64,000 bases of DNA from Hydrogenobacter sp. T-2 (lineage in GTDB: Bacteria; Aquificota; Aquificia; Aquificales; Aquificaceae): NCBI RefSeq assembly GCF_033971325.1, contig NZ_CP117180.1, forward strand, positions 998,041 through 1,062,040, in the 5' to 3' direction. A program made the translations under genes and the position numbers. Below, one piece after another: positions 2,081-23,963 of this stretch (positions are counted from its first letter, which is position 1; every line of letters starts with the position of its first letter). Under the pieces are notes generated by a model. It saw only the letters and a program-made list of their open reading frames with translations, was not told the DNA's origin and did no database searches.

Positions 2081-3205
2081 TTATGCCACCTCCTCTTTAT
2101 GTGATGCACTCTTCCATCCTGCTATGGATACAAACAGGAAGAAGAGGAAAAACACTAAGAAATAAAGTGCTATAACCTCCGTTACCCCCTCCCTTCCTAT
2201 CAGCTTTATATGTGGTTCTACGATGCCCCTATGCCCCTTATCTATCATCTGGGCTGGTATGACCATAGTCCACCTTGCGGCATAAATCGAGATAAGTGAG
2301 ACTATGCTTAGAAGTGATACACCTCCTACGGTGCGATTTAGAGAGGTAAAACCACCTATCAGCACAAAGAGAAGACCAATGACCTCCACAAGGTAAAAGA
2401 GCATGTTTGCCTTTATCGCCATAGCTATAAGAGGCCATTCCGCGGTATTCCAATACCATTCAGAAACATACTTTATGAAAAGCACAAAAAGGTCAAAGCC
2501 TGCAAAGCTTGCCATGACAAGGGTTGGCACTTTTAGAACCTGAGGGTTCACCTTCTCACCAAGGATAGCCTGCCCTACTATGTAAAGCAGTAAGGTCGCA
2601 CCAATACCAGAAACCACTGCGGATATTAAAAACACAAGGAGAAGTATAGAAGTTCCCCAAAGGGGCATAGAATGCATGGCGGACATGAGAAAACCCACAT
2701 AAGCATGGAAAAACATGGCAACTGGCACGCTAACCCCAGCCCAGAATTTTACCTTCTTATCATCCTCTTCAGGTTTAACATCCTTTGCACCAAAGGTTAG
2801 AAAACCAGCTATTGAACCCCAAATCCCACCTTCTTTAGCCTTTTGAATAAAATCTCTTCTGAAAAGGAAGTAGCTCTTTAAGAACATCACAAGCAAAAGG
2901 ATAGTCCAGAGGATGAAGAAGAGGATTATGGGTGAGGAGAAATTAGGATAAAATGGGACTTTAAAGGCTCTTGCGGGTTGGGTGAGGTCAAACATGGGAG
3001 CAAGGGGTGCAACGAGCATTAGGGCTATAGCCAAGAAGTGTCCTACCCTTTCTAACTGCTCCAGTTTTCTTAGACCAAAAAGATAAACAAGGGCGGTTAT
3101 AACTGTAGAACCCGCAACTATACCAGTGAAGTAGGGGTAGGTTACTATAAGAACACCCCACTCCACTGTGTGGTTGGGCAACGTGGGTCCATGAGTTACT
3201 ATCAT
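2081..3205 (-). CDS. ttrC: NrfD/TtrC-type quinol-oxidising membrane subunit
   Basis: The 374-residue protein is very hydrophobic with about nine predicted membrane helices, typical of the NrfD/PsrC family that exchanges electrons between the quinone pool and an FeS subunit at the outer face of the inner membrane. It lies 1 base before the catalytic gene and 11 bases after the FeS gene, so the three are one transcription unit. An AAGGAGG ribosome site precedes the ATG. A soluble loop around residues 125-150 (GGIWGS...KPEEDDKK) separates the helix groups. TtrC is named from operon order; a PsrC- or SrrC-like role is also possible. Confidence 0.8.
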   Translation of the reverse strand: MIVTHGPTLPNHTVEWGVLIVTYPYFTGIVAGSTVITALVYLFGLRKLEQLERVGHFLAIALMLVAPLAPMFDLTQPARAFKVPFYPNFSSPIILFFILWTILLLVMFLKSYFLFRRDFIQKAKEGGIWGSIAGFLTFGAKDVKPEEDDKKVKFWAGVSVPVAMFFHAYVGFLMSAMHSMPLWGTSILLLVFLISAVVSGIGATLLLYIVGQAILGEKVNPQVLKVPTLVMASFAGFDLFVLFIKYVSEWYWNTAEWPLIAMAIKANMLFYLVEVIGLLFVLIGGFTSLNRTVGGVSLLSIVSLISIYAARWTMVIPAQMIDKGHRGIVEPHIKLIGREGVTEVIALYFLVFFLFFLFVSIAGWKSASHKEEVA

Positions 3206-3216
3206 GGCTTACCTCC

Positions 3217-4059
3217 TTATCTTGATTCTCTAAACATGTTGTGTTGCATACGCACGTTGAAAGTGTATACCTTACCGCTTGCAGGGTCTGTCCACACCGC
3301 AGGTGGGTGCTGGTTTTCTGTAGAGCTTCCCGTGCCTACGTAGATTCCCTCTATGCCTTCCAACCCTATGTAAAACACTCTTGGCTTTGTGCCTTCTTCT
3401 GGCTTTAGGACCTGAATGCTGTTTTTCTTTATCAACTCCCATATGGGGTCGTTTGGGTTTGAAAGGTCTCCAAAATCTCTTGCTTTTGTGGGGCATACAT
3501 CTACACAAGCAGGCTTCAAACCGTTTCTCGTTCTGTGGTCGCACCAACTGCATTTGTTCATCACCATCATTATCGGGTCTATGTATCTCACGCCATAGGG
3601 ACATGCCTGCTCGCAAAGTCTACAGCCTATGCACCGCTCATATCTTTGGAGCACAAGACCATCGCCCTCGTCCCTGTATGTTGCATACACAGGACAGACC
3701 TTAACACAGGGTGGGTTTTCACAATGGTTGCACAACTTTGGAACATTAAGAACCTTTACCCTTGTTTCACCAGTGTTAGGGTCTGTATACCCTACTTCCC
3801 ACTTTTCTACCCAGGTATTGAAAACGCCAAGTGGAGTGTTCCTTTCTGCCTTGCAAGCAGCAACGCAAGCATCACAGCCTATGCACTTGCGCACATCCAC
3901 CACAAACACAAAGCGATGTTTCCCCTTCTGCTCAGGGAAGTTCCTCTCCGCCCTTGCACTTTCAAGCACCGCACCACCGCAGGTAGCGGCCGCACCAACC
4001 ACAAGAGCCTTTATAAAACCTCTCCGTGATGCCTGTTTTTCTTTCAGCTCTTGACTCAT
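3217..4059 (-). CDS. ttrB: TtrB-type four-cluster ferredoxin subunit with Tat signal
   Basis: The protein (280 residues) would carry electrons from the membrane subunit to the molybdoenzyme. A Tat signal (SRRGFIKALVV, residues 10-20) is followed by four cysteine groups for [4Fe-4S] clusters: CIGCDAC, CNHCENPPC, CIGCRLC and CSWC...CVDVC, the standard pattern of DmsB/TtrB/PsrB subunits. The ATG at 4059 is chosen over an upstream ATG at 4113 because an AGGAGGT ribosome site sits directly before it and the Tat motif is then correctly near the N-terminus. It is the first gene of the ttrBCA-like operon; palindromic sequences lie upstream at 4089-4102 and 4158-4179. Confidence 0.85.
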   Translation of the reverse strand: MSQELKEKQASRRGFIKALVVGAAATCGGAVLESARAERNFPEQKGKHRFVFVVDVRKCIGCDACVAACKAERNTPLGVFNTWVEKWEVGYTDPNTGETRVKVLNVPKLCNHCENPPCVKVCPVYATYRDEGDGLVLQRYERCIGCRLCEQACPYGVRYIDPIMMVMNKCSWCDHRTRNGLKPACVDVCPTKARDFGDLSNPNDPIWELIKKNSIQVLKPEEGTKPRVFYIGLEGIEGIYVGTGSSTENQHPPAVWTDPASGKVYTFNVRMQHNMFRESR

Positions 4060-12285: not shown

Positions 12286-12729
12286 ATGGACAAGACTGCA
12301 GTCATCCAGAAACTCAACCGTATACTTGAGCTGGAGCTGGCGGGCGTGGTGAGATACACTCACTATGCACTTATGGTATATGGGGTGAACCGTATACCCA
12401 TCGTCAAGTGGCTTGAAAAACAGGCAGAAGACTCGCTTCAGCACGCCAGAGAGGCAGGAGAGCTCATTACCTACCTTGGCGGACATCCATCTTTGGGTAT
12501 TGGTCCTCTACTTGAGACCTACAGGCACGAGATTGAGGAAATACTAAAGGAGTCTTTGGAGCATGAACTCAAAGCCTTTGAGGAGTATAGGGCACTGCTT
12601 GAGCTTGTAAAGGACAAGGACCCAAGGCTTGAAGAATGGGTAAGAGAAAAGCTCAAAGAGGAGCTTGAGCACTACGACGAGGTTAACAAAATGCTCAGAA
12701 AACCTGGACAGATTGAGGTTTACCAGTGA
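12286..12729 (+). CDS. Ferritin-like / bacterioferritin-type diiron protein
   Basis: The 147-residue four-helix protein carries regularly spaced diiron ligands: Glu in LELELAGVVRYTHYAL (helix A), Glu and His in AEDSLQHAREAGE (helix B), Glu in EHELKAFEEYRAL (helix C) and Glu/His in KEELEHYDEV (helix D). This is the bacterioferritin/Dps-like layout for iron oxidation and storage or peroxide removal. A haem-ligand Met cannot be assigned with confidence. It ends an operon with the DUF2325 protein and membrane peptide, followed by a clear terminator. Confidence 0.85.
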   Translation: MDKTAVIQKLNRILELELAGVVRYTHYALMVYGVNRIPIVKWLEKQAEDSLQHAREAGELITYLGGHPSLGIGPLLETYRHEIEEILKESLEHELKAFEEYRALLELVKDKDPRLEEWVREKLKEELEHYDEVNKMLRKPGQIEVYQ

Positions 12730-12748
12730 CTTGCAGGTTCTTGCTCAT

Positions 12749-12780
12749 GGGAGGCTTGCCTGCCTTGCCTCCCCCTTTTT
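12749..12780 (+). terminator. Rho-independent terminator after the ferritin-like gene
   Basis: A GGGAGGC stem (12749-12755) pairs with GCCTCCC (12767-12773) across an 11-base loop and is followed by CC and five T. It separates the ferritin operon from the TonB-receptor operon starting at 12799. Confidence 0.82.
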
Positions 12781-12798
12781 ATAGGATGGAGGTATAAA

Positions 12799-14793
12799 AT
12801 GAGAAAAAAGCTTTTCTTGCTTGCGGTTTTTAGCTCCACAGCCCTTGCCCAAGAGACACTTGAAGATGTGGTAATATCCGCCACAAGACAGGAGCTGGAG
12901 CAAAAGCTGGCACCACCACCGGTGAATGTGATAAGGGACAGGGACCTAAAGGACTTGGGAAAGAGTCAAAAACTCTCAGACCTTTTACTTTTTGATAGCA
13001 GTGTTTACTTGCTTAGGTCGAGGGGAAGGAGCTTTTTTAGCATAAGAGGCTTTGATGCGGACAAGGTCTTGGTGCTTGTGGATGGCAGGAGGTTGGCTTC
13101 TGAAACGGATAGGGACTTTGAACCTTTTAGGATAGGGCTTGATAGGGTGGAGAGGGTGGAGATATTGAAAGGTCCTGCCAGCGTGCTATACGGCTCGGAC
13201 GCCTTGGGTGGTGTGGTAAACATAATCCTAAAAGAACCTCTAAAGCCAGAGCTTAGCTACAGCCTCAAGTATGGCAAGTATACCTCTTCCAATAAACCAG
13301 AAGCCTTTGACCTATCTCTTAGTGCCTTTAGTGGTCGTGTTGGAAACTTTAGCGTGGGTGCTTATCTGCGGTCTTCTACAGAGAGGAGCTTTCTCTTTCC
13401 TCCCACCAGAACAAGCCTTGAACCTAAAAACCAAGTTGCAGACTTTGGAGTGAGTCTTTTCTACTACTTGGATGAGTCCTCAAAGAGCAAGCTAAGGCTT
13501 GACCTTGAAAAACAAAAACACGAATCAGAGTCAAGGATTTCCACCTTTGTGCCAGGAACAAGACCGCCTCAGAGAACCACTGCAACAGGTAAAAACGAAA
13601 ACCACAGGCTTAATGCATCCCTCTCTCTAAACCTTGACAGGGGAACATGGAGAGGATTTGTAAGGGCTTATCTTTCCAACTTAGAGGCGGACTTCAGACA
13701 GCGTGAGGTAAGCACCAACAGGCTTTTGAGGTCTGATGACCAAAAGTTTTACCTTTGGGTTTTGGAGGGCAATCTCTCCTTTGACCTTTTTGAAAGCCAT
13801 AGGCTTACCTTTGGTGGTGAGTTTAGAAGGGAGGGATTGGAGAGCACAAGGATAGGTAGAGGCAAAGACAAGGGGCTCGTAGACAGGGGAGCCCTTGAGG
13901 GACCAAAAAGAAAATACAAGGTGGATGACGACTTTTATGCCCTATACCTGCAGGATGAGTGGTTTGTAAGCGATAAACTCTTTCTAACCGCTGGCATAAG
14001 ATACGATGGCAGTAAGGATGGGGATGATAACTTAAGCCCGAGGGTGGGACTTACCTATAGCCTTCTGCCAGACCTAAGGTTAAAGGCAAACTACTCTCAG
14101 GGCTTTAGAAACCCACCTCTTAGAGACAGATACATCTTCTTTCAGATGTCCAACTACTATGTGGTGGGTAACCCAGACCTCAAAAGCGAGAAAACTCAAG
14201 GTATAGACCTTGGCATAGAAAAGGACTTTACTCATAGGGGCGGCATAAGGGCTAACTACTTCTACATGAAGGCAAAGGACCTCATAGAAGTCCAGACAGT
14301 ATGCGACAACATAAGAGGAACCGCACCAGCTTTGTGTCCTATTTTGGACTTTCCTCTACCACCAGGCTTTTTTGCAGCAACATACAGGAATATTGGAAAG
14401 GCTAAGTTTACTGGTTTTGAACTTTCTGGCTTTTATGAACCTTTAAACTGGCTTCGTCTTAGGACTTCCTACACTTACCTTGAGGCAAAGGACGAGAGCC
14501 AAGACCAAAGGCTTTTACAAAGACCCAGACACAGGGCGGTGGGTGAGTTGGCACTTAAGCCTCTTGAGAACACAAAGATAAGCCTTACAGTCCAGCACTC
14601 TTCTGACGTGCTTTACCTTATAAACAACAGACCTCAAAAGAAGGACTTTACGCTCCTCGGCTTGGCTGTAAACCAAAGGGTCTTCAGAGGGCTTGAGCTC
14701 TTTGGTGGTGTGGATAACCTAAACAACAAAAAGGACTATGACATTGGCTTGCTTGGTAGCTTCTACTACGCAGGCGTAAGAGGCACTTTCTAA
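12799..14793 (+). CDS. TonB-dependent outer-membrane receptor
   Basis: The 664-residue protein has a signal peptide (cleavage after TALA), a TonB-box-like EDVVISATR segment, a plug domain (DKVLVLVDGRR, ERVEILKGPASVLYGSDALGGVVNII) and a beta-barrel ending in an aromatic residue (VRGTF). It would import a scarce ligand using TonB energy. Barrel segments GFRNP and NPDLKSE resemble the FRAP and NPNL boxes of haem receptors, but the His usually between them is absent and similar boxes occur in BtuB-like receptors. Ligand is therefore open: haem, corrinoid or a metal chelate. It opens the cluster with ExbB, TonB and the CobN-like protein. Confidence 0.92.
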   Translation: MRKKLFLLAVFSSTALAQETLEDVVISATRQELEQKLAPPPVNVIRDRDLKDLGKSQKLSDLLLFDSSVYLLRSRGRSFFSIRGFDADKVLVLVDGRRLASETDRDFEPFRIGLDRVERVEILKGPASVLYGSDALGGVVNIILKEPLKPELSYSLKYGKYTSSNKPEAFDLSLSAFSGRVGNFSVGAYLRSSTERSFLFPPTRTSLEPKNQVADFGVSLFYYLDESSKSKLRLDLEKQKHESESRISTFVPGTRPPQRTTATGKNENHRLNASLSLNLDRGTWRGFVRAYLSNLEADFRQREVSTNRLLRSDDQKFYLWVLEGNLSFDLFESHRLTFGGEFRREGLESTRIGRGKDKGLVDRGALEGPKRKYKVDDDFYALYLQDEWFVSDKLFLTAGIRYDGSKDGDDNLSPRVGLTYSLLPDLRLKANYSQGFRNPPLRDRYIFFQMSNYYVVGNPDLKSEKTQGIDLGIEKDFTHRGGIRANYFYMKAKDLIEVQTVCDNIRGTAPALCPILDFPLPPGFFAATYRNIGKAKFTGFELSGFYEPLNWLRLRTSYTYLEAKDESQDQRLLQRPRHRAVGELALKPLENTKISLTVQHSSDVLYLINNRPQKKDFTLLGLAVNQRVFRGLELFGGVDNLNNKKDYDIGLLGSFYYAGVRGTF

Positions 14794-15218
14794 TGTGGGT
14801 TGAATATGTGTTTATGGGCATTATGCTGGGTATGAGCCTTGTTGCGGGCTATGTCTTCTTTGAGAGGCTCTTCTTTTACAGAAGGGTGGATATATCCTCC
14901 TTTTCCACAAGGGCTGGGCTGGAGAGGGAGCTCACCAAGGGGCTATACATAATAGCTTCTGTTGCTTCTAACGCACCCTATGTGGGGCTTTTAGGCACGG
15001 TTATAGGCATAATGCACACCTTTCAGGTCATGGGAAGGGAGGGTATAGGGGATACTCTAAGGATAATGGTAGGGCTTGCACTTGCCTTGAAGGCTACCGC
15101 CATGGGTCTTTTGGTCGCCATACCTGCAGGCATAGCCTATAACTACCTCCTTAGAAGGGCAAGAGACCTCCTCTACCAGTGGGAAGACACAAGACAAAAA
15201 GAGGGTCCAAAGACATGA
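14793..15218 (+). CDS. exbB: ExbB-type proton channel protein
   Basis: The 141-residue protein has three membrane helices and the ExbB/TolQ signature: NAPYVGLLGTVIGIMHTF (second helix) and a long third helix with ALKATAMGLLVAIPAGIAYNYL. ExbB forms the pentameric channel that drives TonB by proton flow. Its start shares one base with the receptor stop (TAATG). No classical ExbD follows; the only ExbD-like protein here is DUF2149 at 16977. Confidence 0.9.
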   Translation: MWVEYVFMGIMLGMSLVAGYVFFERLFFYRRVDISSFSTRAGLERELTKGLYIIASVASNAPYVGLLGTVIGIMHTFQVMGREGIGDTLRIMVGLALALKATAMGLLVAIPAGIAYNYLLRRARDLLYQWEDTRQKEGPKT

Positions 15219-16024
15219 AGTTAGACCTTAGGGCTTTTACCTTGTCCTTTTTAGTCCACTCCTTGGCTGGCTTTATAGCCTTCCAGATGATACGCTTTGA
15301 GCTGGTGGAGAAGAAGGTGGTAGAACTTGACCTGTCTATGTTAGAGGTGAGGAAGGAAGTCCATAAGGATACATCACAAAAACCAATTCAAAGCATAAGG
15401 GATAAGGTAGAACCTCAAAGTCCTATGAGAGAAAACACAAGGGAAAGGGTAGAGACCCTGCCAACCCATACCTCCATAAAGACTGTAGAAAGGGAAGAGT
15501 CAAAAAGCCAACCCTTGGGAGTTCTGGAGGAGGCTACAAGGGAGGAAACCCAAGAGGTAAAACCCACACTCTCAGGAGAAGGCATAGAGCCAAAGGATAA
15601 AGGAGAAGTGCATGCAGGTCAGCCAATTAAAGAAGGCTCAAAGACCTTGGGTGAGGCTTCAGGTGCAAAACCCAGAGAGCTTACCTCCTCAGATAGGCAT
15701 GGTGGGGCGGGGGGGAAGGGGGAGGAAGACTACAGCGTCCTTTATAGTAGACAGAACTTTGAAAGTATAAGGTCTTTGGTTAGGAGCCACCTTGAGTATC
15801 CTACCCTTGCAAGGATGAGGGGATGGGAGGGGAGGGTGGTGGTTCTTATCTGTCTTGAGGGAAGGTCCTTGTGTGGTCTTTCTATAAAGGAGAGCTCAGG
15901 CTACAGGGTGCTTGACGACGCGGTAATAAGGGCGGTTCAAAAAGCTCATAGGGACTTTCCCTTTGCGGAAAGAAGGGTAAACCTTTCTCTTCCCGTTCAG
16001 TTCACTCTAAAGGAGGGTAGCTAA
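15215..16024 (+). CDS. tonB: TonB energy-transducing protein
   Basis: The 269-residue protein has one N-terminal membrane anchor (TLSFLVHSLAGFIAF), a long charged periplasmic linker (residues 40-180, rich in Glu, Lys and Thr rather than Pro) and a TonB C-terminal domain: LEYPTLARMRGWEGRVVVLI, then IKESSGYRVLDDAVIRAVQKA. A CxxxxxC pair (ICLEGRSLCG) inside the C-terminal domain is unusual. The ATG at 15215 overlaps the exbB stop (ATGA). It presumably energises the receptor at 12799. Confidence 0.9.
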   Translation: MKLDLRAFTLSFLVHSLAGFIAFQMIRFELVEKKVVELDLSMLEVRKEVHKDTSQKPIQSIRDKVEPQSPMRENTRERVETLPTHTSIKTVEREESKSQPLGVLEEATREETQEVKPTLSGEGIEPKDKGEVHAGQPIKEGSKTLGEASGAKPRELTSSDRHGGAGGKGEEDYSVLYSRQNFESIRSLVRSHLEYPTLARMRGWEGRVVVLICLEGRSLCGLSIKESSGYRVLDDAVIRAVQKAHRDFPFAERRVNLSLPVQFTLKEGS

Positions 16025-16476
16025 TGGAGAAGGTTTTCTACCAGATTGTTATGGTCTTTCAGTATCCTGTTTACGCACTTATTGTGCTTATGTTTGTCTA
16101 TTCTCTCTTTGACCTTGGCTTTTTTACCGCAAGAGCCATAAAGAGGGCTTTGGGCAAAAACCACCCTCCCCCACTAAAACCAGGGGACCTATACATGAAG
16201 GCACTAAAATCCTTGGAAATACCAAGGCTTGTCTCAAGGGTTGCACCCCTCTTGGGACTTGTGGGAACTCTTATACCCTTGGGACCTGCCCTGCTTGCCC
16301 TTGCGGAGGGGAATACCCAAGAACTTGGCAGAAAGCTCTCCTTTGCCTTTGGTGCAGTGAGCCTCTCCCTAATATCTGCAAGCATTAGCTACTACACCTC
16401 CACGGTGCGAAGAAGGTGGCTCTTGGAGGACATTAAGAAGTTGGAGGAGAAGGATGTCAGTCCTCAAGAAGGCTGA
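16024..16476 (+). CDS. Second MotA/TolQ/ExbB-family proton channel protein
   Basis: The 150-residue membrane protein carries RVAPLLGLVGTLIPLGPALLALAEGN, a variant of the ExbB/TolQ core in which GTVIGI is replaced by GTLIPLGPAL. To my knowledge this variant sits beside DUF2149 and CobN-like genes in Bacteroidetes haem-uptake (hmu) loci and in some archaea. Its last 20 bases overlap the convergent hicA gene. It probably pairs with DUF2149 (16977) to form a channel serving the CobN-like protein rather than TonB. Confidence 0.78.
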   Translation: MEKVFYQIVMVFQYPVYALIVLMFVYSLFDLGFFTARAIKRALGKNHPPPLKPGDLYMKALKSLEIPRLVSRVAPLLGLVGTLIPLGPALLALAEGNTQELGRKLSFAFGAVSLSLISASISYYTSTVRRRWLLEDIKKLEEKDVSPQEG

Positions 16477-16687
16477 GGAATTGGTCTTTATCAATGAGAA
16501 GTTGTTTTATTATAGCGTTAACTGTTCCTTTTTTAAGAGGTCTCTTACTCCAATCTGGTATAATTGTAGACCTTCCTGTGTTTGGATTATACCATTTCCT
16601 ATGCGAACCTCCACCTTTTCTTTCCAGTTCATAGCACCCAAGCTTCCTAAGTATATATGTCAATTCTCTATATGTGAGGTTTTTCAT
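16457..16687 (-). CDS. hicA: HicA-family mRNA interferase toxin
   Basis: The 76-residue protein has the HicA double-stranded-RNA-binding-like layout: TYRELTYILRKLGCYE, then the catalytic GGGSHRKWYNP segment with its His, then IPDWSKRPLKKGTVNAIIKQL. HicA toxins cleave mRNA when free of HicB. It is downstream of hicB by 3 bases and overlaps the 3' end of the convergent exbB-like gene by 20 bases. Confidence 0.88.
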   Translation of the reverse strand: MKNLTYRELTYILRKLGCYELERKGGGSHRKWYNPNTGRSTIIPDWSKRPLKKGTVNAIIKQLLIDKDQFLSLLED

Positions 16688-16690
16688 CCT

Positions 16691-16942
16691 TTAAGGTTTG
16701 AAGGGGGCTATATAATTTTCCTCCGCACCATTAAGGTAATCTCCAAACTTTTCTGGAAGAGGTTTTTCAAGCTCCATATAAAGTTCCAAAACCGCCCTAA
16801 GGCTGTCTTCCAGCACCTCTGGAAGCTCTTCAAGCTCGTCTATCTCTGTAATGAGTTCAGGAAAGTCTGGACTAAGCACAAGCCAACCGCCCTCTTCCTG
16901 AGCTATAAGCTGAAGGTCAAGTTTTTTAAGTATTTCCCTCAT
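16691..16942 (-). CDS. hicB: HicB-type antitoxin
   Basis: The protein resembles HicB/DUF1902-type antitoxins: a short beta domain with GGWLVLSPDFPEL followed by helices (LEELPEVLEDSLRAVLELYMEL). It should bind and silence HicA and repress its own promoter. The start at 16942 (83 residues) is preferred over an ATG at 16978 (95 residues) because a strong promoter (16950-16978) covers the upstream codons and its -10 ends 7 bases before 16942. There is no ribosome site at either start. Confidence 0.78.
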   Translation of the reverse strand: MREILKKLDLQLIAQEEGGWLVLSPDFPELITEIDELEELPEVLEDSLRAVLELYMELEKPLPEKFGDYLNGAEENYIAPFKP

Positions 16943-16949
16943 ATGACTA

Positions 16950-16978
16950 ATTATAAGCCCACGTGGAGGTTTCGTCAT
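16950..16978 (-). promoter_or_regulatory. hicBA promoter overlapping the DUF2149 start codon
   Basis: On the minus strand ATGACG (16978-16973) and a perfect TATAAT (16955-16950) are spaced by 17 bases. The -35 lies on the start codon and the spacer on the ribosome site (GGAGG) of the plus-strand DUF2149 gene. Transcription would start at or beside the hicB ATG at 16942. Confidence 0.65.
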
Positions 16979-17309
16979 GAACTATAAAGAGCTTGTGCGT
17001 CAAGAGTTAGAGAGGTTAGAGGAAGAGACAGACCCCATGCTGTCGGTGGTAAACATGATTGACGCCTTTTTGGCGGTGGTTATAGCCCTGCTTTTGGTCT
17101 TGGTAAACAGCCCCTTTAACCCTTTCACCAAGGAGGACTATGTGCTTGTTAAAAACCCTGACAAGGAAAACATGGAAATCCTCATAAAGAAGGGAGAAAA
17201 ACTTGAAAGATACGTAAAGACTCAAAGCGTAGGTGAGGGGAAGGGAGTAAAGGTGGGCATAACCTACCGCTTAGAGGATGGAACTCTCATATACGTGCCG
17301 GAGGAGTAA
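16977..17309 (+). CDS. DUF2149 protein, ExbD-like
   Basis: The 110-residue protein has a cytoplasmic head, one membrane helix (NMIDAFLAVVIALLLVLV, residues about 26-43) and a small periplasmic domain, the topology of ExbD/TolR. Asp29, just inside the helix, sits where ExbD has its essential proton-carrying Asp. It is therefore likely to be the ExbD-type partner of the ExbB-like protein at 16024, separated from it only by the inserted hicBA. A GGAGG site precedes the ATG. The stop is 2 bases before the CobN-like start. Confidence 0.78.
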   Translation: MNYKELVRQELERLEEETDPMLSVVNMIDAFLAVVIALLLVLVNSPFNPFTKEDYVLVKNPDKENMEILIKKGEKLERYVKTQSVGEGKGVKVGITYRLEDGTLIYVPEE

Positions 17310-17311
17310 GG

Positions 17312-20300
17312 ATGAGGTTTGTTGTTGCTTTGCTTTTTCTCCTTAGCTTTGCCTTTGCTCAAAGAGTGGTTTTTGTAATGAGTTTTCCAAACCCTCCAAA
17401 GAAGCTCCAGCTTTTGCTCCAAAGTGCCAAGGAGGAAGGGCTTCCTGCGGAGGGCTTTTACCTTACCTCTCAAAACTACAGGTCCTTTATCCCTCCACCT
17501 GCGGACTTATACATAATAGACGCTCCGCCGGAGGAGATAAGAAGTTTTTTGGAAGAAAACCTTAGGGACAAAAGGTATATCCTCCTTAGTCAGCCACCTT
17601 CGGGACAAGACAAGGAGCTACTTGACAAGCTCTACCCCTACTACCACTCTGGAGGTAGGGAAAACTTCAGAAACATGATAAGAATACTGCTTGGGCTTCC
17701 TGCAGAGCCACCAAGGGAGCTACCTATGGTGGGCTTTTATCATCCAAAGAGGGGTGTAATGGACAGGATTCCTACAGAGGTGCAAAAGCCTTTGCTTGTG
17801 CTTTTTCACAGGTCAGACCTTACCGCAGAAAACACGGAGATAGTAGACCAGCTTATTCTCTCTGCGGAGAAAAGGGGTATAAGTGCCTTTGGCTTTTACT
17901 ACCCAGAAAGGGAGGGTCTTAGAAGGCATTTGCATCTTCTTACCTCAGAAGGCAAGCCCATACCCTCTGTGCTTATAAACCTCAGGCTTATGTATTTTGC
18001 TCCCGATGACGAGAGAAAAGCCTTTGAAGAGCTTGGTGTTCCTGTGCTTTTGGGTCTTACCTACAGGGGTAAGCTGGAGGATTGGGAAAACTCAAAGGAA
18101 GGCATACCCATAGCCCTTATACCCTTTTACTTTGCCCTGCCAGAGTATGTGGGTGCCATTGACCCTACCGTAGTAGGCTACGACCACCACATAAAAAGAC
18201 CAATAGAGCGTATGCTGGAAAACCTTGTGGAAAGGGCTATAGGCTGGAGAGAGCTACAAGACCTTGAAAACTCTCAAAAGAGTATCGCTCTTGTCTATTA
18301 TAACTACCCACCTGGGGATAGGAACATATTAGCTTCAAACCTAAATGTGATTAGAAGTTTTGAGCTATTACTAAAAGAGGCAAAGGCACGCGGATACAAG
18401 GTGGAGGAGCTTTCAGAGAGACAAATAGAGTCAAAACTCACCCACCTTATAGGTTTTTATTACCGCAAAGCTGTAAACAGGCAATTTTTGGAGTGCTTAC
18501 CCTTAGAGGACTATCTTAGCTGGTATGAGAGCCTACCTCAAAGGATAAGAGAGGAAATAGAGCTTTATTGGGGAAAGCCTCAGAAGGACCCCTATCTTAA
18601 AGGTTCTTGCTTTCCAATACCCATCTACAGGACAGGGAATTTTGCCTTTTTGCCCCTTGCACCCAGGGGAGTGGACTATCTAAAAAACAGGGAGCTTTAC
18701 CACAGCACAAAAGTCCCACCCTCTCACTATTACCTTGCCTTTTATCTTTTTCTGCAGAAACATTTCCATGCCATAGTGCATTTTGGAACTCATGGCACTC
18801 AAGAGTGGACTCCGGGCAAGGAGAGGGGTCTTGACCTTTGGGACTATCCATACCTAACCCTCGGCGGTAGACCTGTTATATATCCCTACATTGTGGACAA
18901 CGTGGGAGAGGCTGTAAACGCCAGAAGAAGAGGCAGAGCCCTTATCATATCTCACCAAACTCCTGCCTTTGCACCCTCTGGCACATACGGGGAGCTTGAA
19001 GAGCTTCACCAACTTCTTCATAAGGAATCTCAAGCAGAGGGAAGACTGAAGGAAACACTACGCAGGGACATAGCCCAAAGAGCCATAAAGGCTCGCATAG
19101 CTCAGGATATGGGATACAAAAGCCAAAGGGAAATCTTGAGAAACTTTGAAGACTTTTCAGAAAGACTGCACAACTACCTGCATGAACTGGCAAGTCAAAA
19201 CATCCCACTGGGGCTTCATACCTTTGGAAGAACAAAGGACAAGGAGCTTATAGCCCTAACCTTACTGCAGATGCTGGGAGAGGATTGGGTAAGAAAATAT
19301 GAAGAGGAAGACTACAAAGAGTTTCTCGCAAGACCCATTGAAGCCATAAAGACCTCCCAAGCCTACAGGAAGCTCCTTGAATGTATAGAAAAGCCAGCTC
19401 AAGAGGAGTGCGGTAAGGTGCAGGAGCTATACACGAGGTTTGATGCCAGCACAGAGACAAAAGCCTTTTTCTCAGCCCTTGAGGGCAAGTATATACCCAC
19501 TTCCTATGGCGGAGACCCTATTAAAAACCCCGACGCACTGCCTACTGGCAGAAACCTCTACAGTTTTGACCCCTCTCGTGTTCCCACTCCTCAGGCTTGG
19601 AAGACTGCGGTGCAGGTCAACCAAGAGTGGCTAAGGCAATACTACCAAAAACACAAAGCCTACCCTCAAAAGGTAGCCTTTACCCTCTGGTCTACGGAGA
19701 CCATGAGGCACTTTGGCGTGGTAGAAGCCCAGATATTGCACCTGCTTGGTGTAAAGCCAAAGTGGGATGAAGGAGGGAGGGTGGTAGGTCTTGAGGTTAT
19801 ACCAAAAGAGGAGCTAAAGAGACCGCGCATAGATGTGGTGGTGTCTGCGACAGGTCTTTATAGGGACCACTTTCCTAACCTTATGAACCTCATAAACCAA
19901 GCGGTTAGACTTGTGGCAGGGCTTGAAGAGGAGGAGAACTTCGTAAGGGAGAACACTCAAAGGCTAAAGGAAATGCTCTTAAGAAGGGGCTTTGACCAAG
20001 ACAAGGCTTTTGTGCTTGCTACCGTGAGGAGCTTTTCCAACGAGAGCGGTGCCTATGGTAGTGGTCTTGATGAAGCGGTTTTTCAAACAAGAAACAAGAA
20101 GACCCTCTCTGACCTCTTTCTGCATCGCATGGGCTATGCCTACGACACAAACCTATATTCAGAAAAGGTAGAGGGTCTCTTTGAAGAGAACCTAAAAGGC
20201 ACAAAGGCGGTAATTTTGTCAAGAAGCTCCAACCTATATGGCATGCTTACCACCGACGACCCCTTTCAATACTTAGGCGGGCTTGCCCTTGCAGTAGAGA

Positions 20301-20881
20301 CCATAAGCGGTCAAAAGCCAGAGGTTCTTATTGCAAACCTCAGAAGTAATGCAAAAGTCCAAACCGCAGAAGAATTTCTCATACAGGAGGTAAGAGCAAG
20401 GTATACAAACCCGCAGTATGTAAAAGCTTTGATGCAGGAGGGCTATTCGGGGGTAAACGAACTGCTAAACACTCTAAACAACCTCTACGGCTGGCAAGTG
20501 GTAGCACCTCAGGTGGTAAAGGACTACATCTGGCAGGAGTTTAAAGAGGTATACCTTGAAGACAGATACAACCTTGGCACAAAGAGATGGCTCATGCAAA
20601 ACTTCTCCGCCATGAAACAGATACAGGAAAGGCTTTCTCAAGGCATAGGTCTTTCTGGCTACTCTCCAAACCAAGGAAGGATAAGGGAAGGCACAGATAC
20701 ACCACAACCTGCAGGCGTCTCTGAGCTACTTAAAGGCTCTGTCCTACAGAAGGTAAGTCAACAGGCAGAGCCTATGGAAAATTCTCACGAAGCCAAATCC
20801 TATAGCATCTTTTTGGCTTTTATCTTAGCCCTTTATATGCTCGGCTTGGTGGAGGGTCTAAGGAGGAGAAGCTACGCATGA
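17312..20881 (+). CDS. Exported, membrane-anchored CobN/HmuS-like chelatase
   Basis: The 1189-residue protein is of the CobN/BchH large chelatase-subunit family. The core motif HFGTHGTQEWTPGKERGLD (around residue 490) and the following YPYIVDNVGEA...RRRGRALIISHQTPAF segment are family hallmarks, as are TLWSTETMRHFGV and the SATGLYRDHFPNLMNLIN region. Unlike cytoplasmic CobN it starts with a signal peptide (cleavage near AFAQ) and ends with a membrane helix followed by RRR, so the catalytic part should be periplasmic and anchored at its C-terminus. No CobS/CobT or ChlI/ChlD ATPase gene is nearby. With the TonB receptor and ExbB/DUF2149 genes it resembles the hmuRSTUV arrangement, where HmuS is a CobN-like protein implicated in removing iron from haem. 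Cobalt insertion into or removal from corrinoids is the alternative. Confidence 0.85.
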   Translation: MRFVVALLFLLSFAFAQRVVFVMSFPNPPKKLQLLLQSAKEEGLPAEGFYLTSQNYRSFIPPPADLYIIDAPPEEIRSFLEENLRDKRYILLSQPPSGQDKELLDKLYPYYHSGGRENFRNMIRILLGLPAEPPRELPMVGFYHPKRGVMDRIPTEVQKPLLVLFHRSDLTAENTEIVDQLILSAEKRGISAFGFYYPEREGLRRHLHLLTSEGKPIPSVLINLRLMYFAPDDERKAFEELGVPVLLGLTYRGKLEDWENSKEGIPIALIPFYFALPEYVGAIDPTVVGYDHHIKRPIERMLENLVERAIGWRELQDLENSQKSIALVYYNYPPGDRNILASNLNVIRSFELLLKEAKARGYKVEELSERQIESKLTHLIGFYYRKAVNRQFLECLPLEDYLSWYESLPQRIREEIELYWGKPQKDPYLKGSCFPIPIYRTGNFAFLPLAPRGVDYLKNRELYHSTKVPPSHYYLAFYLFLQKHFHAIVHFGTHGTQEWTPGKERGLDLWDYPYLTLGGRPVIYPYIVDNVGEAVNARRRGRALIISHQTPAFAPSGTYGELEELHQLLHKESQAEGRLKETLRRDIAQRAIKARIAQDMGYKSQREILRNFEDFSERLHNYLHELASQNIPLGLHTFGRTKDKELIALTLLQMLGEDWVRKYEEEDYKEFLARPIEAIKTSQAYRKLLECIEKPAQEECGKVQELYTRFDASTETKAFFSALEGKYIPTSYGGDPIKNPDALPTGRNLYSFDPSRVPTPQAWKTAVQVNQEWLRQYYQKHKAYPQKVAFTLWSTETMRHFGVVEAQILHLLGVKPKWDEGGRVVGLEVIPKEELKRPRIDVVVSATGLYRDHFPNLMNLINQAVRLVAGLEEEENFVRENTQRLKEMLLRRGFDQDKAFVLATVRSFSNESGAYGSGLDEAVFQTRNKKTLSDLFLHRMGYAYDTNLYSEKVEGLFEENLKGTKAVILSRSSNLYGMLTTDDPFQYLGGLALAVETISGQKPEVLIANLRSNAKVQTAEEFLIQEVRARYTNPQYVKALMQEGYSGVNELLNTLNNLYGWQVVAPQVVKDYIWQEFKEVYLEDRYNLGTKRWLMQNFSAMKQIQERLSQGIGLSGYSPNQGRIREGTDTPQPAGVSELLKGSVLQKVSQQAEPMENSHEAKSYSIFLAFILALYMLGLVEGLRRRSYA

Positions 20882-20892
20882 GAAAAATCATA

Positions 20893-20921
20893 TTGACAGC
20901 GGATTTCAATTTATTTATACT
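20893..20921 (+). promoter_or_regulatory. Strong promoter for the porin gene
   Basis: A consensus TTGACA (20893-20898) and TATACT (20916-20921) are separated by exactly 17 bases. The porin ATG at 20964 follows with an AAGGAGG ribosome site. This is the best sigma-70-type match in the window, fitting an abundant outer-membrane protein. Confidence 0.82.
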
Positions 20922-20963
20922 TTATTGCTACAAAATCTCAATTTTAGTGTAAGGAGGTTTGGC

Positions 20964-22364
20964 ATGAAGAAGGTGCTTTTAGCCACCGCACTCTTTTCCA
21001 CTGCAGTTTTTGCCCAAACGCCAGAGGATAGGGTTCGTCAGCTTGAGGAGCAGATAAGGATGCTCCAGCAGGAGGTTCAAAAGCTAAAAGAGGAGCAAAA
21101 GAAGGCAGAAGAAACAAGGAAGGAAACAGAAGCCCTCAAGGAAGAGATAAGACAGCTCAGGCTTGACATTGCCATGCCACAACTTGAGATTAAGTCCTAT
21201 TCTGGACTTGGTCCCGCAGCCTCAAAGGTGCACTTTAACCCAAGGGGTGTGTCCATAGGTGGTTATGGTGAGCTCGTATTTAGACGCAACGATGTGGATG
21301 CAAGAGGTCGTGCAAAAAATATAGCCAATATGCAGAGGATAATCCTATACCTTGGCTACGCCTTTGATGAAAAGCTAAAGTTTAACTCGGAGCTTGAGTT
21401 GGAGCATGCCTCTACCTCTAAAGACCATGGAACGGAGGGAGGATACTTCAAGGCGGAGCTTGCCTATCTTGACTACCAGTTTAGACCCGAGTTTGGAGTA
21501 AGGGGTGGTCTACTGCTTATGCCCGTGGGTATAGTAAACGAAATCCACGAGCCTCCTACCTTTCCCTCTGCGGAAAGACCCTTCTTTGAGCGTAGGATAA
21601 TGCTGTCCACATGGGAAGAGATGGGTCTTGGAGTGTATGGAACGGTGGGTCCTGTAGACTACAGGTTTTATCTGATAAACGGACTTATGCTGAAAGGTGG
21701 TGGAGGCTACAATGCACTTGAGCCTTTAAAAACTGTCAGACAAAGGGGTGCAAGGGCTGTGGCAGACAGGCTTGGTTACACAGGAAGAGTGGATATAGAC
21801 CTGCCTCTTAACGTGAAAATTGGAGGTTCTTTTGTCTACGCAGATGTGCAGTCTAAGGGTGATTCAGATTCTCAGCTTGGTCTCAGAAGAGGTTCAAAGG
21901 TGGGCTCAGTTACCATGCTTTCTCCTCACCTGTGGTGGCAGTATGCGGGATGGGACGTGAGGTTTGTAGGAGCATTGGTGAAAATCAATGATGCTTTAAA
22001 GATGTCCAGAGACCTTTTTGGAAACGATATCCAGAACCCAAGCACTGGTGATAACAGAGATAAAATAATGCCAAGGGAACAGCAAGGCTTTTATGTGCAG
22101 GTGGCTTATGACCTCTTTAGGCTCTTTGGACCAGAAAACCAGGAGCTTTATGTCTTTGGGATATACGAGGACTTTGATACACACAAAAAAGTGCCCTCTG
22201 GCTATCTAAAGCCTAACGGACATAAGCTAAGGGTTTATAACGTCGGTATTTCCTATAAGCCCCACCCTCTCGTAGCCATAAAAGCGGACTATGCGAAGTT
22301 GGACTACAGCAAGCCAAGAAAGGATGAGAACGAATACAGGCTCACGCTTGGTTTCATGTTCTGA
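20964..22364 (+). CDS. Outer-membrane porin with N-terminal coiled coil
   Basis: The 466-residue protein has a signal peptide (cleaved after AVFA), a periplasmic coiled coil (residues 23-75, Glu/Lys/Gln heptads beginning EDRVRQLEEQIRMLQQEV) and a predicted beta-barrel with alternating aromatic strands ending in Phe (TLGFMF). This layout is common for Aquificota and deep-branching porins in which the coil tethers the barrel to peptidoglycan. Specificity is not evident; an OprO/OprP-like phosphate porin is one possibility. The ATG at 20964 is chosen for its AAGGAGG site. It has its own promoter and terminator. Confidence 0.82.
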   Translation: MKKVLLATALFSTAVFAQTPEDRVRQLEEQIRMLQQEVQKLKEEQKKAEETRKETEALKEEIRQLRLDIAMPQLEIKSYSGLGPAASKVHFNPRGVSIGGYGELVFRRNDVDARGRAKNIANMQRIILYLGYAFDEKLKFNSELELEHASTSKDHGTEGGYFKAELAYLDYQFRPEFGVRGGLLLMPVGIVNEIHEPPTFPSAERPFFERRIMLSTWEEMGLGVYGTVGPVDYRFYLINGLMLKGGGGYNALEPLKTVRQRGARAVADRLGYTGRVDIDLPLNVKIGGSFVYADVQSKGDSDSQLGLRRGSKVGSVTMLSPHLWWQYAGWDVRFVGALVKINDALKMSRDLFGNDIQNPSTGDNRDKIMPREQQGFYVQVAYDLFRLFGPENQELYVFGIYEDFDTHKKVPSGYLKPNGHKLRVYNVGISYKPHPLVAIKADYAKLDYSKPRKDENEYRLTLGFMF

Positions 22365-22473: not shown

Positions 22474-23016
22474 ATGGCTCTGTTGACCCTTTTATTTCTT
22501 ATTGTTTACACTCTCTTATCCACTGACTCCTTGCAAGCAAAAGAGTTCAAAAGACCAGAGCAAGCCCTTTCTCAGATTTATCCCGGCTCTCAAATAGAGG
22601 TTAGGAATATTACCCTCACAAGAGAGCAGGTGGAAGAGGTTCAAAGGATATCTGGCGTCAGGTTAGAATCAAGGCTCGCCTCATGGTATATAGTCAGAAA
22701 AGGTGGACAAATAGTAGCCTATGGCTATGCGGACATACACAGAGTTAGGACGCATCCAGAGGTAGTCCTATATACAATTACCCCAGACGGAAGGCTTGAC
22801 GTGGTAGAGGTGCTTGCCTTTTATGAGCCTCTTGAGTATATGCCAGAAGACCAATGGCTTAGGCTCTTTGCAGGCAAACAGCTAGGCAAAGACCCCATAA
22901 GACTTAGGAGAGATATTCCCAATATAACAGGTTCTACTTTGACAGCAAGAGCTATAACTGACAATGCCCGTAAGGTGCTTGCCATGTGGCAGATACTTTT
23001 TGGAAGTGCAAGATGA
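22474..23016 (+). CDS. Exported FMN-binding domain protein (RnfG/NqrC-type flavinylation site)
   Basis: The 180-residue protein has an N-terminal signal or anchor and an FMN-binding domain with the C-terminal motif TGSTLTARAITDNARK, which matches the S/T-G-A/S-T-x-T sequence where ApbE attaches FMN through a Thr. Such proteins carry electrons across or along the outer face of the membrane. A GGAGG ribosome site precedes the ATG and a TAGAAT -10 lies about 20 bases upstream. It overlaps the next gene by 4 bases (ATGA), so the two products probably act together. No apbE gene is in the window. Confidence 0.82.
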   Translation: MALLTLLFLIVYTLLSTDSLQAKEFKRPEQALSQIYPGSQIEVRNITLTREQVEEVQRISGVRLESRLASWYIVRKGGQIVAYGYADIHRVRTHPEVVLYTITPDGRLDVVEVLAFYEPLEYMPEDQWLRLFAGKQLGKDPIRLRRDIPNITGSTLTARAITDNARKVLAMWQILFGSAR

Positions 23017-23963
23017 GGTTTTTCATATCTGCCAACATAAAGAAAAACACACCCCTATACTACGCAGTGCTCTTTTTCTTGGTTTTTGCCTTGCTTTTCT
23101 GGCTTGCCTCTTGGGTTCATTTCTATTCCAAGTATGGCTTTTCTCAAGAGAGTCTTGTGAGATATTTCTTTATGGACCCAGAATTTCCCGAAAGGGTCTC
23201 CATAGCACAGGTCTCGGAGGACTTTCATGTGGGAGTTTTTATCCATGGAATGCTTTTGATAACCCTTTTTTCTTTGCTAAATATAACAGCCTTATCCAAG
23301 AAAGTCAAGTTAATGTTTATAACTTCCACAAGTTTCTTTGCCCTTTTGTTTTTGCTTTCTGACTTCCTTATACTTCTGCTTGGCACCAAGACGGTTATGT
23401 TAAAGCTCCTTTCCTTCTTGGCTTACCAGCTTAATTTTTTAATTACATGGTTTTTGACCACCTTCCACATCCTAAGAGATAAACAAAACTCGCCGAAAAC
23501 AGACACTCTAAAGCTTATAAGCCTTGCCTTTGCTTTTTTTTCTCTTTTTTTTCTCTTTTCTAATTTTTTGAACTTTCATGCTAAAATGGGCTTTGGGGTT
23601 GAGGGCATAAGAGACTACTTTCTTGGCAATCCAGACCTCTTCATTAGGGCTAAGAGTTTTAATGGCGTTTTCAAAGTTTTTTATCCCCATCTTATAGCCA
23701 TGGCGGTTTATTCTCTTGCCTTGGCTCATCTTTTGTCTTTTGTAGGAGTAAAGAGAAAAACAGCCCTTTGGATAGGTCTTTTTCTGTTTCTCTTTTCCTT
23801 TTTAGATAATCTTACAAGTCTGCTTTTGCTTTTTCTTGGTTCACCCCTTGCCTACCTTAAACTGCTTAGCTTTTGGAGCTTTCAGCTCTTAGCTGTTGGC
23901 TCTTCCCTTGTGCTATTAGTGGGTTCTTTGAAAGGGGGCGAAGGGGCAAAGCTATATCTTTGA
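23013..23963 (+). CDS. Internally duplicated membrane protein coupled to the FMN-binding protein
   Basis: This 316-residue protein of about eight helices is not recognised. It is a clear tandem duplication. Each half has a helix, then K-x-GF...E...YF...P...S...F-x-V, then a His-containing helix (FIHGM in half one, PHLIAM in half two), then a helix with LKLLSF followed by an aromatic and QL. The repeated His on a membrane helix could ligate haem b or line a quinone site, but this is a guess. The ATG at 23013 overlaps the stop of the FMN-binding gene, the only sensible partner; the convergent leuS stop is 2 bases beyond its end. Confidence 0.75.
   Translation: MRFFISANIKKNTPLYYAVLFFLVFALLFWLASWVHFYSKYGFSQESLVRYFFMDPEFPERVSIAQVSEDFHVGVFIHGMLLITLFSLLNITALSKKVKLMFITSTSFFALLFLLSDFLILLLGTKTVMLKLLSFLAYQLNFLITWFLTTFHILRDKQNSPKTDTLKLISLAFAFFSLFFLFSNFLNFHAKMGFGVEGIRDYFLGNPDLFIRAKSFNGVFKVFYPHLIAMAVYSLALAHLLSFVGVKRKTALWIGLFLFLFSFLDNLTSLLLLFLGSPLAYLKLLSFWSFQLLAVGSSLVLLVGSLKGGEGAKLYL

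Follow-up and report, generated by a model that had tools for sequence, protein, structure and literature searches.

An exported CobN-family protein of Hydrogenobacter sp. T-2 is linked to an HmuU-DUF2149 pair, a candidate proton-driven motor

A stretch of 64,000 nucleotides from the thermophilic bacterium Hydrogenobacter sp. T-2 (NZ_CP117180.1, positions 998,041 to 1,062,040; hereafter the window) carries at 12799-20881 a cluster of six genes which encode, in this order, a TonB-dependent outer-membrane receptor, ExbB, TonB, a second ExbB-like protein of the HmuU kind, a DUF2149 protein and an exported protein of the CobN family. A first-pass annotation of the window had listed the six genes in this order, and all six are present with matches to their families. 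Comparison with related loci from hundreds of genomes indicates that DUF2149 and the HmuU-type protein follow the exported CobN and not the receptor, a relation that is new in this analysis. This co-travel suggests that the enzyme runs on a proton gradient, not on ATP. The cluster may thus encode a BtuS/HmuS-type system for the acquisition of metal chelates, in which a proton-driven exported chelatase or dechelatase has HmuU-DUF2149 as its dedicated motor; we hold this reading, the best of those considered, to be evenly poised.

The HmuU-DUF2149 pair follows the exported CobN

Related loci were sampled around CobN and, independently, around DUF2149, a search that does not presuppose CobN. DUF2149 was encoded in 71 of the 80 CobN-centred loci and HmuU in 70, most of the others being cut by contig ends. 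Conversely, HmuU and CobN were adjacent to DUF2149 in all Pseudomonadota (17/17) and Methanobacteriota (20/20) stretches of the DUF2149-centred sample. One exception was observed, a plasmid (L009) with DUF2149 and no recognised HmuU or CobN. The co-occurrence of exported CobN with DUF2149 and the ExbB-like protein, a check proposed in the first-pass annotation, is therefore near-obligate in both bacteria and archaea.

DUF2149 was found in 93 of 295 Methanobacteriota genomes. The gene order was DUF2162-HmuU-DUF2149 in 30/30 archaeal loci viewed, none of which had a match to a TonB-dependent receptor, TonB or ExbD, and a CobN had a C-terminal transmembrane helix in 19 of 20 archaeal stretches (the exception, L190, lies at a contig end). 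No metal gene was a consistent neighbour of the archaeal loci. Archaea of the Methanobacteriota have no outer membrane, and therefore their HmuU/DUF2149 pair cannot serve a TonB receptor. Two or three exported CobN genes stand in tandem after DUF2162-HmuU-DUF2149 in L086, L180 and other methanogen loci.

HmuU and HmuV, the latter of the DUF2149 type, have been assigned to the energising of the receptor, a view set out for B. theta (PMC10100974, PMC12583661) and left open in PMC13227078. HmuU and DUF2149 could be a variant of ExbB/ExbD that powers the receptor through TonB, leaving CobN without a motor. A receptor is indeed encoded within the stretch in 15/17 proteobacterial loci, and the window locus has no ExbD, so that DUF2149 could replace it. 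We nevertheless consider this explanation unlikely: the archaeal pair accompanies CobN where there is no receptor, TonB or outer membrane, no receptor lies in the stretch in some bacterial loci (L226 and L228), and a separate, full ExbB-ExbD-TonB set is encoded besides HmuU-DUF2149 in many bacterial loci (L007, L027, L030, L031, L069, L075 and L082, for example), including that of the sister species (G046). The archaeal loci without receptors, together with all proteobacterial DUF2149 loci examined, support the earlier proposal that the pair serves the chelatase.

The exported protein is neither HmuS nor a cobalamin-synthesis CobN

The CobN-family protein of the window (sequence start MRFVVALLFLLSFAFAQ, end SYSIFLAFILALYMLGLVEGLRRRSYA) begins with a predicted signal peptide (MRFVVALLFLLSFAFA, then Q) and ends with a hydrophobic segment followed by RRR (SIFLAFILALYMLGLVEGLRRRSYA). 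In an AlphaFold2 model (predicted local distance difference test score 85.9, predicted template modelling score 0.82), residues 1116-1165 form a disordered linker behind the chelatase body, and residues 1164-1186 form the terminal helix. The sequence and this helix agree with the signal peptide, C-terminal anchor and export described in the first-pass annotation. The nearest solved folds are those of Mycobacterium tuberculosis CobN (7c6o, template modelling score 0.74) and of HmuS (9d26, 0.73).

HmuS is characterized by Met79 and His254-Gly-Arg, the axial ligands of the haem in its head/neck site, by the catalytic His538 in HFG(T/A)HG, by His1209/Glu1212 and by a Met-rich insertion (Nath et al., PMC12583661). 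The HFGTHG motif is present in the window protein, in which His494 corresponds to His538. Both in this protein and in that of G046, the positions of Met79 and His254 are occupied by Pro and Leu. At the place of the HmuS motif LSLDHxxEFMGG, the window protein has LTTDDPFQYLGG, with Asp and Gln for His1209 and Glu1212, and this active-site motif, DDxFQYxGG, is CobN-like. The Met-rich domain IV insert is absent from the two Aquificota proteins, which have at most 4 Met per 60 residues. Because Met79, His254, His1209 and the Met-rich insert are missing, only the equivalent of His538 being retained, we conclude that the window protein is not HmuS as defined in PMC12583661. The residue at the HmuS 1209 position was also considered as a simple rule for substrate class and was rejected, since Fur-type proteobacterial members have Asp and HmuS has His.

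The Pfam/NCBIfam name CobN, the CobN-like DDxFQYxGG motif and the top structural match to M. tuberculosis CobN would all fit an ordinary cobaltochelatase of cobalamin synthesis whose export has been misjudged. This is very improbable, as a signal peptide and a C-terminal transmembrane helix are common to the clade, which branches separately from cytosolic CobN. In addition, the protein, the single CobN-family member encoded in this complete genome (1.69 Mb, one contig), scores under every CobN equivalog cut-off of NCBIfam. The first-pass annotation had observed no CobS/CobT or ChlI/ChlD gene nearby; none was found in the complete genome either, a TIGR02442 search giving only generic AAA matches under the cut-off. 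No cobJ/cbiH, the sole gene of the corrin-ring pathway tested, was over the cut-off. Lacking a CobS/CobT/ChlD-type partner and cobJ/cbiH in its genome, and being below the CobN equivalog cut-offs, the window protein is, in our judgement, not a cobalamin-synthesis CobN.

Two trees were built (LG+G4, short searches, unrooted, with sampling led by similarity to the exported forms). In the first (95 proteins), the exported set is split from the rest by a branch with a Shimodaira-Hasegawa-like approximate likelihood ratio test (SH-aLRT) support of 99. The three Bacteroidota HmuS group together as a separate clade (100). The window and G046 proteins are sister (100) to 58 further proteins, including the Pseudomonas type, all proteobacterial except one from Campylobacteraceae. 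The second tree, with archaeal cytosolic CobNs and an alignment built on hidden Markov model columns, gave the same split (SH-aLRT 100), with 63/63 proteins that have a C-terminal transmembrane helix and one without on one side, and 17 cytosolic proteins (CobN/ChlH) on the other. Neither tree groups the window protein with cytoplasmic CobN; such grouping, with CobS/CobT genes elsewhere in the genome, had been named in the first-pass annotation as grounds for refuting its reading, and neither was observed. A C-terminal transmembrane helix was predicted in 81 of 84 DUF2149-linked proteins, the other three being short or cut open reading frames, and in none of 10 cytosolic ones. Next to the window protein stands a proteobacterial clade to which the Zur-linked PA1923 type belongs; the export signals, tree position and linkage to HmuU/DUF2149 of the window protein all identify it as a predicted exported chelatase of the BtuS/HmuS type in the broad sense.

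HmuU and DUF2149 as a candidate motor

The second ExbB-like protein carries the HmuU signature GL[GA]T[ML]IP[ML]GPAL. HmuU belongs to the MotA/TolQ/ExbB family, and the Thr of its second transmembrane helix (Thr82) is invariant (100/100). The DUF2149 protein of the window has one transmembrane helix (20-43) with Asp29, followed by a small all-beta domain in a structure model of moderate quality. The transmembrane Asp is invariant, in the motif N[LI]xDxF, and its surroundings resemble the ExbD helix PLVDVMLVLL; in ExbB/ExbD, the proton path runs along these Thr and Asp residues. The qualification of DUF2149 as ExbD-like in the first-pass annotation thus holds only for the helix with its invariant Asp.

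The DUF2149 profile (window 16977-17306), searched against PDB sequences, gave one odd match, to chain A of entry 8qag, named sc-CC-6-95, over 71 residues (8.6e-7). Loci L226-L230 belong to a divergent proteobacterial CobN-HmuU-DUF2149 subfamily, which forms a separate deep branch of the tree and has a short variant of DUF2149 with the helix N[LI][VIM]D[IV]MLVFA. DUF2162 was tried as a homologue of the Bacteroidota HmuT, which was unsupported (hhalign probability 0.9%).

A proposed proton-driven exported chelatase

Class I chelatases need a cytosolic AAA+ motor, as established for CobNST and ChlHID. Exported members have lost this partner and have gained a MotA/TolQ/ExbB-family protein together with a one-helix protein with Asp. 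In the proposed mechanism, the receptor, energised by ExbB and TonB with an ExbD encoded elsewhere in the genome, would bring a metallo-tetrapyrrole or a similar chelate into the periplasm, where the chelatase, anchored at the inner membrane via its C-terminal helix, would remove or exchange the metal. The HmuU-type ExbB and DUF2149 would assemble into a stator-like complex that serves the chelatase alone, possibly engaging CobN through the DUF2149 ectodomain. Proton flow would then drive the conformational cycle of the chelatase, as the CobS/T or ChlI/D motor does elsewhere with ATP, and the freed metal would be taken up by an ordinary inner-membrane importer. Export signals, gene content, phylogeny, the absence of AAA+ partners and the near-obligate linkage are observed; from them we infer complex formation, proton coupling, the direction of the reaction and the ligand. 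HmuS, a member of this superfamily with an operon of like type, removes the metal from haem (PMC12583661).

Several observations weigh against a proton motor for the window protein. First, purified HmuS with NADH, without HmuU/HmuV, turns haem into protoporphyrin IX (PMC12583661); therefore, the motor is not strictly needed for haem dechelation. A B. fragilis btuS1 btuS2 mutant still released protoporphyrin (PMC6460266). Second, the position of the second channel Thr, in the third transmembrane helix of HmuU, is Val in 63/100 proteins, including that of the window, and Thr in 37/100. Profile comparison of DUF2149 with ExbD (hhalign) aligned 17 transmembrane columns centred on the Asp with a probability of only 9%, and the moderate-quality model of the DUF2149 ectodomain gave no PDB match at E<=0.001 that would indicate an ExbD/TolR fold. 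Third, gene linkage is no proof of a complex, the window showed no recognisable regulatory box, and in this strain ExbD has been lost and a hicAB insertion separates hmuU from DUF2149-cobN.

The pair and CobN could instead form a proton-driven inner-membrane translocator, in which CobN would bind the tetrapyrrole or the metal, and HmuU-DUF2149, joined by DUF2162 or HmuT in loci that have them, would carry it across with no chelatase chemistry. DUF2162 is a predicted transporter in Pfam and is linked to the pair not only in the 30 archaeal loci but also in L007, L052 and L060, and haem occupies the head/neck site of HmuS (PMC12583661). This alternative is nonetheless doubtful, as the active-site His of HFGTHG is retained in every exported protein sampled, the HmuS H538A mutant is inactive (PMC12583661), and the clade of the window protein has neither DUF2162 nor HmuT.

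Extended to its relatives, the proton-driven reading would mean that class I chelatases exist in two mechanical forms, one cytosolic and driven by AAA+ proteins, the other extracytoplasmic, with members as far apart as Aquificota and methanogens, powered by HmuU-DUF2149 as a proton motor of the rotary type and used for haem iron, zinc and corrinoids under the control of Fur, Zur and cobalamin riboswitches. We see the case for this broader proposal as balanced about midway. If it is true, the published role of HmuU/HmuV as receptor energiser is wrong. For HmuS too, through which much haem iron is obtained in the gut, a pair that follows the chelatase even where no outer membrane exists would offer a specific, testable answer to how an extracytoplasmic chelatase works without ATP, reassigning HmuU and HmuV. 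The comparison also provides an operon context for many archaeal 'CobN' proteins, called functionally unclear in the HmuS paper (PMC12583661), and a shared engine for the scavenging of iron, zinc and cobamides.

Which metal

Receptor or operon genes are immediately preceded by cobalamin riboswitches in Planctomycetota (L076, L079, L082, L083, L085, L088), and likewise in L080, Trichlorobacter lovleyi L007, L069 and L091. None was found in the window, which includes the sequence upstream of 12799 where the first-pass annotation had proposed to look. Zur-like boxes were present upstream of 11/15 Pseudomonas-clade loci versus 1/41 other proteobacterial loci, and Fur-like boxes upstream of 0/15 and 13/41, respectively (box mismatches judged for each locus against 100 shuffles at an uncorrected p<=0.05, a level at which about 1 in 20 passes by chance). 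The Zur-box counts agree with the published Zur-regulated operon PA1922-1925 (PMC4542158). No Fur or Zur box was recognised for the window or G046; the box survey started the operon at hmuU, and a separate search covered the receptor upstream. Since the loci of relatives are preceded by Fur boxes, Zur boxes or cobalamin riboswitches, one engine appears to be shared while the metal differs between relatives. We propose with low confidence that iron is the likeliest metal in this species, because Fur-like boxes abound in the proteobacterial clade next to it in the tree and because ferritin is encoded beside the cluster. A ferrochelatase is encoded in the genome; the host therefore probably makes haem and would not have to take it up for use as such.

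Gene content and history of the cluster in the genus

The features of the locus are listed in Table 1. The best NCBIfam match of the receptor is TIGR01785, the haem/haemoglobin receptor (195.6 bits, under the cut-off of 316.9), and its domains match PF00593 (9e-57) and PF07715 (1e-21) of Pfam. No His lies between the FRNPP and NPDL boxes of this receptor; the first-pass annotation had noted the same for FRAP- and NPNL-like boxes.

Table 1. Features of the cluster and its borders in the window
Feature	Position	Strand	Properties
Ferritin-like gene, neighbour outside the system	12286..12729	+	own terminator-like hairpin after the gene
TonB-dependent outer-membrane receptor	12799..14793	+	664 aa; signal peptide; TonB-box-like EDVVISATR
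ExbB proper	14793..15218	+	141 aa; PF01618 1e-28; TIGR02805 132 bits, slightly under cut-off 135
TonB	15218..16024	+	268 aa; TonB_C PF03544 1e-10
HmuU-type ExbB-like protein	16024..16476	+	150 aa; PF01618 2.4e-6; signature GLVGTLIPLGPAL
HicA toxin gene, hicAB-like insertion, outside the system	16457..16687	-	HicA PF07927 4.9e-15
HicB-like antitoxin candidate	16691..16978	-	weak Pfam match; start codon overlaps DUF2149 start codon
DUF2149/HmuV-type protein	16977..17309	+	110 aa; PF09919 3.5e-26
Exported C-tail-anchored class I chelatase, CobN/BtuS/HmuS superfamily (predicted)	17312..20881	+	1189 aa; CobN-Mg_chel PF02514 1e-276
Porin-like gene, right border of the cluster	20961..22364	+	own promoter-like site 20893-20921

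DUF2149 was over the cut-off in only 2/136 Aquificota genomes, both of this genus. The second, that of the sister species G046, has the same cluster between the same neighbours, in the order receptor-exbB-exbD-tonB-hmuU-DUF2149-cobN and without hicAB. Identity between the two is 85% for HmuU, 84% for DUF2149 and 68% for CobN. The ExbD gene lies at 13373-13750 of the G046 locus (L092) and is missing at window 15210-15220; two further ExbD genes are present elsewhere in the window genome. Because G046 has exbD and no hicAB, the window locus is deduced to have lost exbD and gained hicAB, two points missed in the first-pass gene list, which was otherwise right for the six genes.

Since the sister species keeps the cluster in the same place, we conclude that its presence is more than a chance occurrence. 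In G042, which does not have the cluster, the flanks consist of the ferritin gene, its terminator-like hairpin and then the porin promoter. In G036, about 45 receptor codons run directly into the DNA that precedes the porin, and the cluster is gone (L162, 2850-3143), a junction that we interpret as a deletion scar. This receptor stub, the loss of ExbD and the splitting of the operon by hicAB could mean that the cluster works in relatives and is decaying in this strain. We judge such decay distinctly unlikely, as all remaining frames are intact and well conserved compared with G046, and two other ExbD genes are available in the genome.

Within window 12726-12802, the ferritin hairpin ends about 14 nt 5' of the receptor start, which leaves no room for a promoter between them; receptor expression may therefore need read-through. 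The start codons of hicB and DUF2149 overlap on opposite strands (hicAB, window 16457-16978, minus strand), and therefore expression of DUF2149-cobN may depend on read-through or on a promoter within hicB. After the porin, window 22474-23963 encodes an unassigned membrane protein and, by a weak Pfam match (E 0.012), a periplasmic FMN-binding-like protein, which are kept in the genus. Ferritin, porin and the FMN-binding-like protein were rejected as parts of the system, since the genus retains all of them without the cluster. In G046, a small exported DsrE/DsrF-like protein, absent from the window, is encoded directly upstream of the receptor (L092, 16106-16519); a similar frame is present in G036 (L162, about 3137-3551).

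Comparison with known systems

The proposal of a candidate new system was too strong, since loci with the same parts have been published (PMC12583661, PMC6460266, PMC4542158, PMC9431628, PMC3403914). The likeness to the Bacteroidetes hmu loci is borne out, the BtuS/HmuS type being the closest known kind. BtuS was proposed as a third CobN type by Rodionov (2003), as cited in PMC6460266; the HmuS structure has been solved and the enzyme is active (PMC12583661), and hmu-like operons behind B12 riboswitches are known in Bacteroides (PMC10100974). No paper linking the HmuU/DUF2149 pair to the chelatase or to archaea was found, subscription literature being outside the scope of the search. What is new here is the link of the pair to the exported CobN rather than to the receptor, the parts list itself being already published.

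The Bacteroidota hmuYRSTUV loci with HmuS (PMC12583661) and B. fragilis BtuS1/BtuS2 (PMC6460266) share with the window the receptor, the exported and anchored CobN homologue with its six-domain fold, HmuU and HmuV. Unlike them, the window has neither HmuY nor HmuT and encodes its own ExbB and TonB, and its chelatase, which lacks the HmuS residues and insert described above, belongs to a separate clade. The Zur operon PA1922-PA1925 of Pseudomonas aeruginosa (PMC4542158, PMC9431628) also comprises a receptor, a CobN-like protein, a protein annotated as ExbB/ExbD and DUF2149, and the proteobacterial clade with this type is sister to the Aquificota pair. Members of the Pseudomonas clade differ by their Zur boxes (11/15, with none recognised in the window) and by His at the positions of His254 (15/15) and His1209 (14/15), where the window protein has Leu and Asp.

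The pSZ77 cobN-exbB-exbD-tonB locus of Geobacter (Trichlorobacter) lovleyi, for which the absence of CobS/T was remarked (PMC3403914), likewise encodes a receptor, HmuU, DUF2149 and an exported CobN, with a classical ExbB-ExbD-TonB set besides HmuU-DUF2149. In contrast to the window, it lies behind cobalamin riboswitches, among cobamide genes and with DUF2162, and its CobN is of a distant clade. Finally, the fold of the catalytic subunit and the HFGTHG-type motif are shared with CobN-CobS-CobT and ChlH-ChlI-ChlD; whereas these are cytosolic and driven by an ATP motor, the window protein is predicted to be exported and has no such motor genes.

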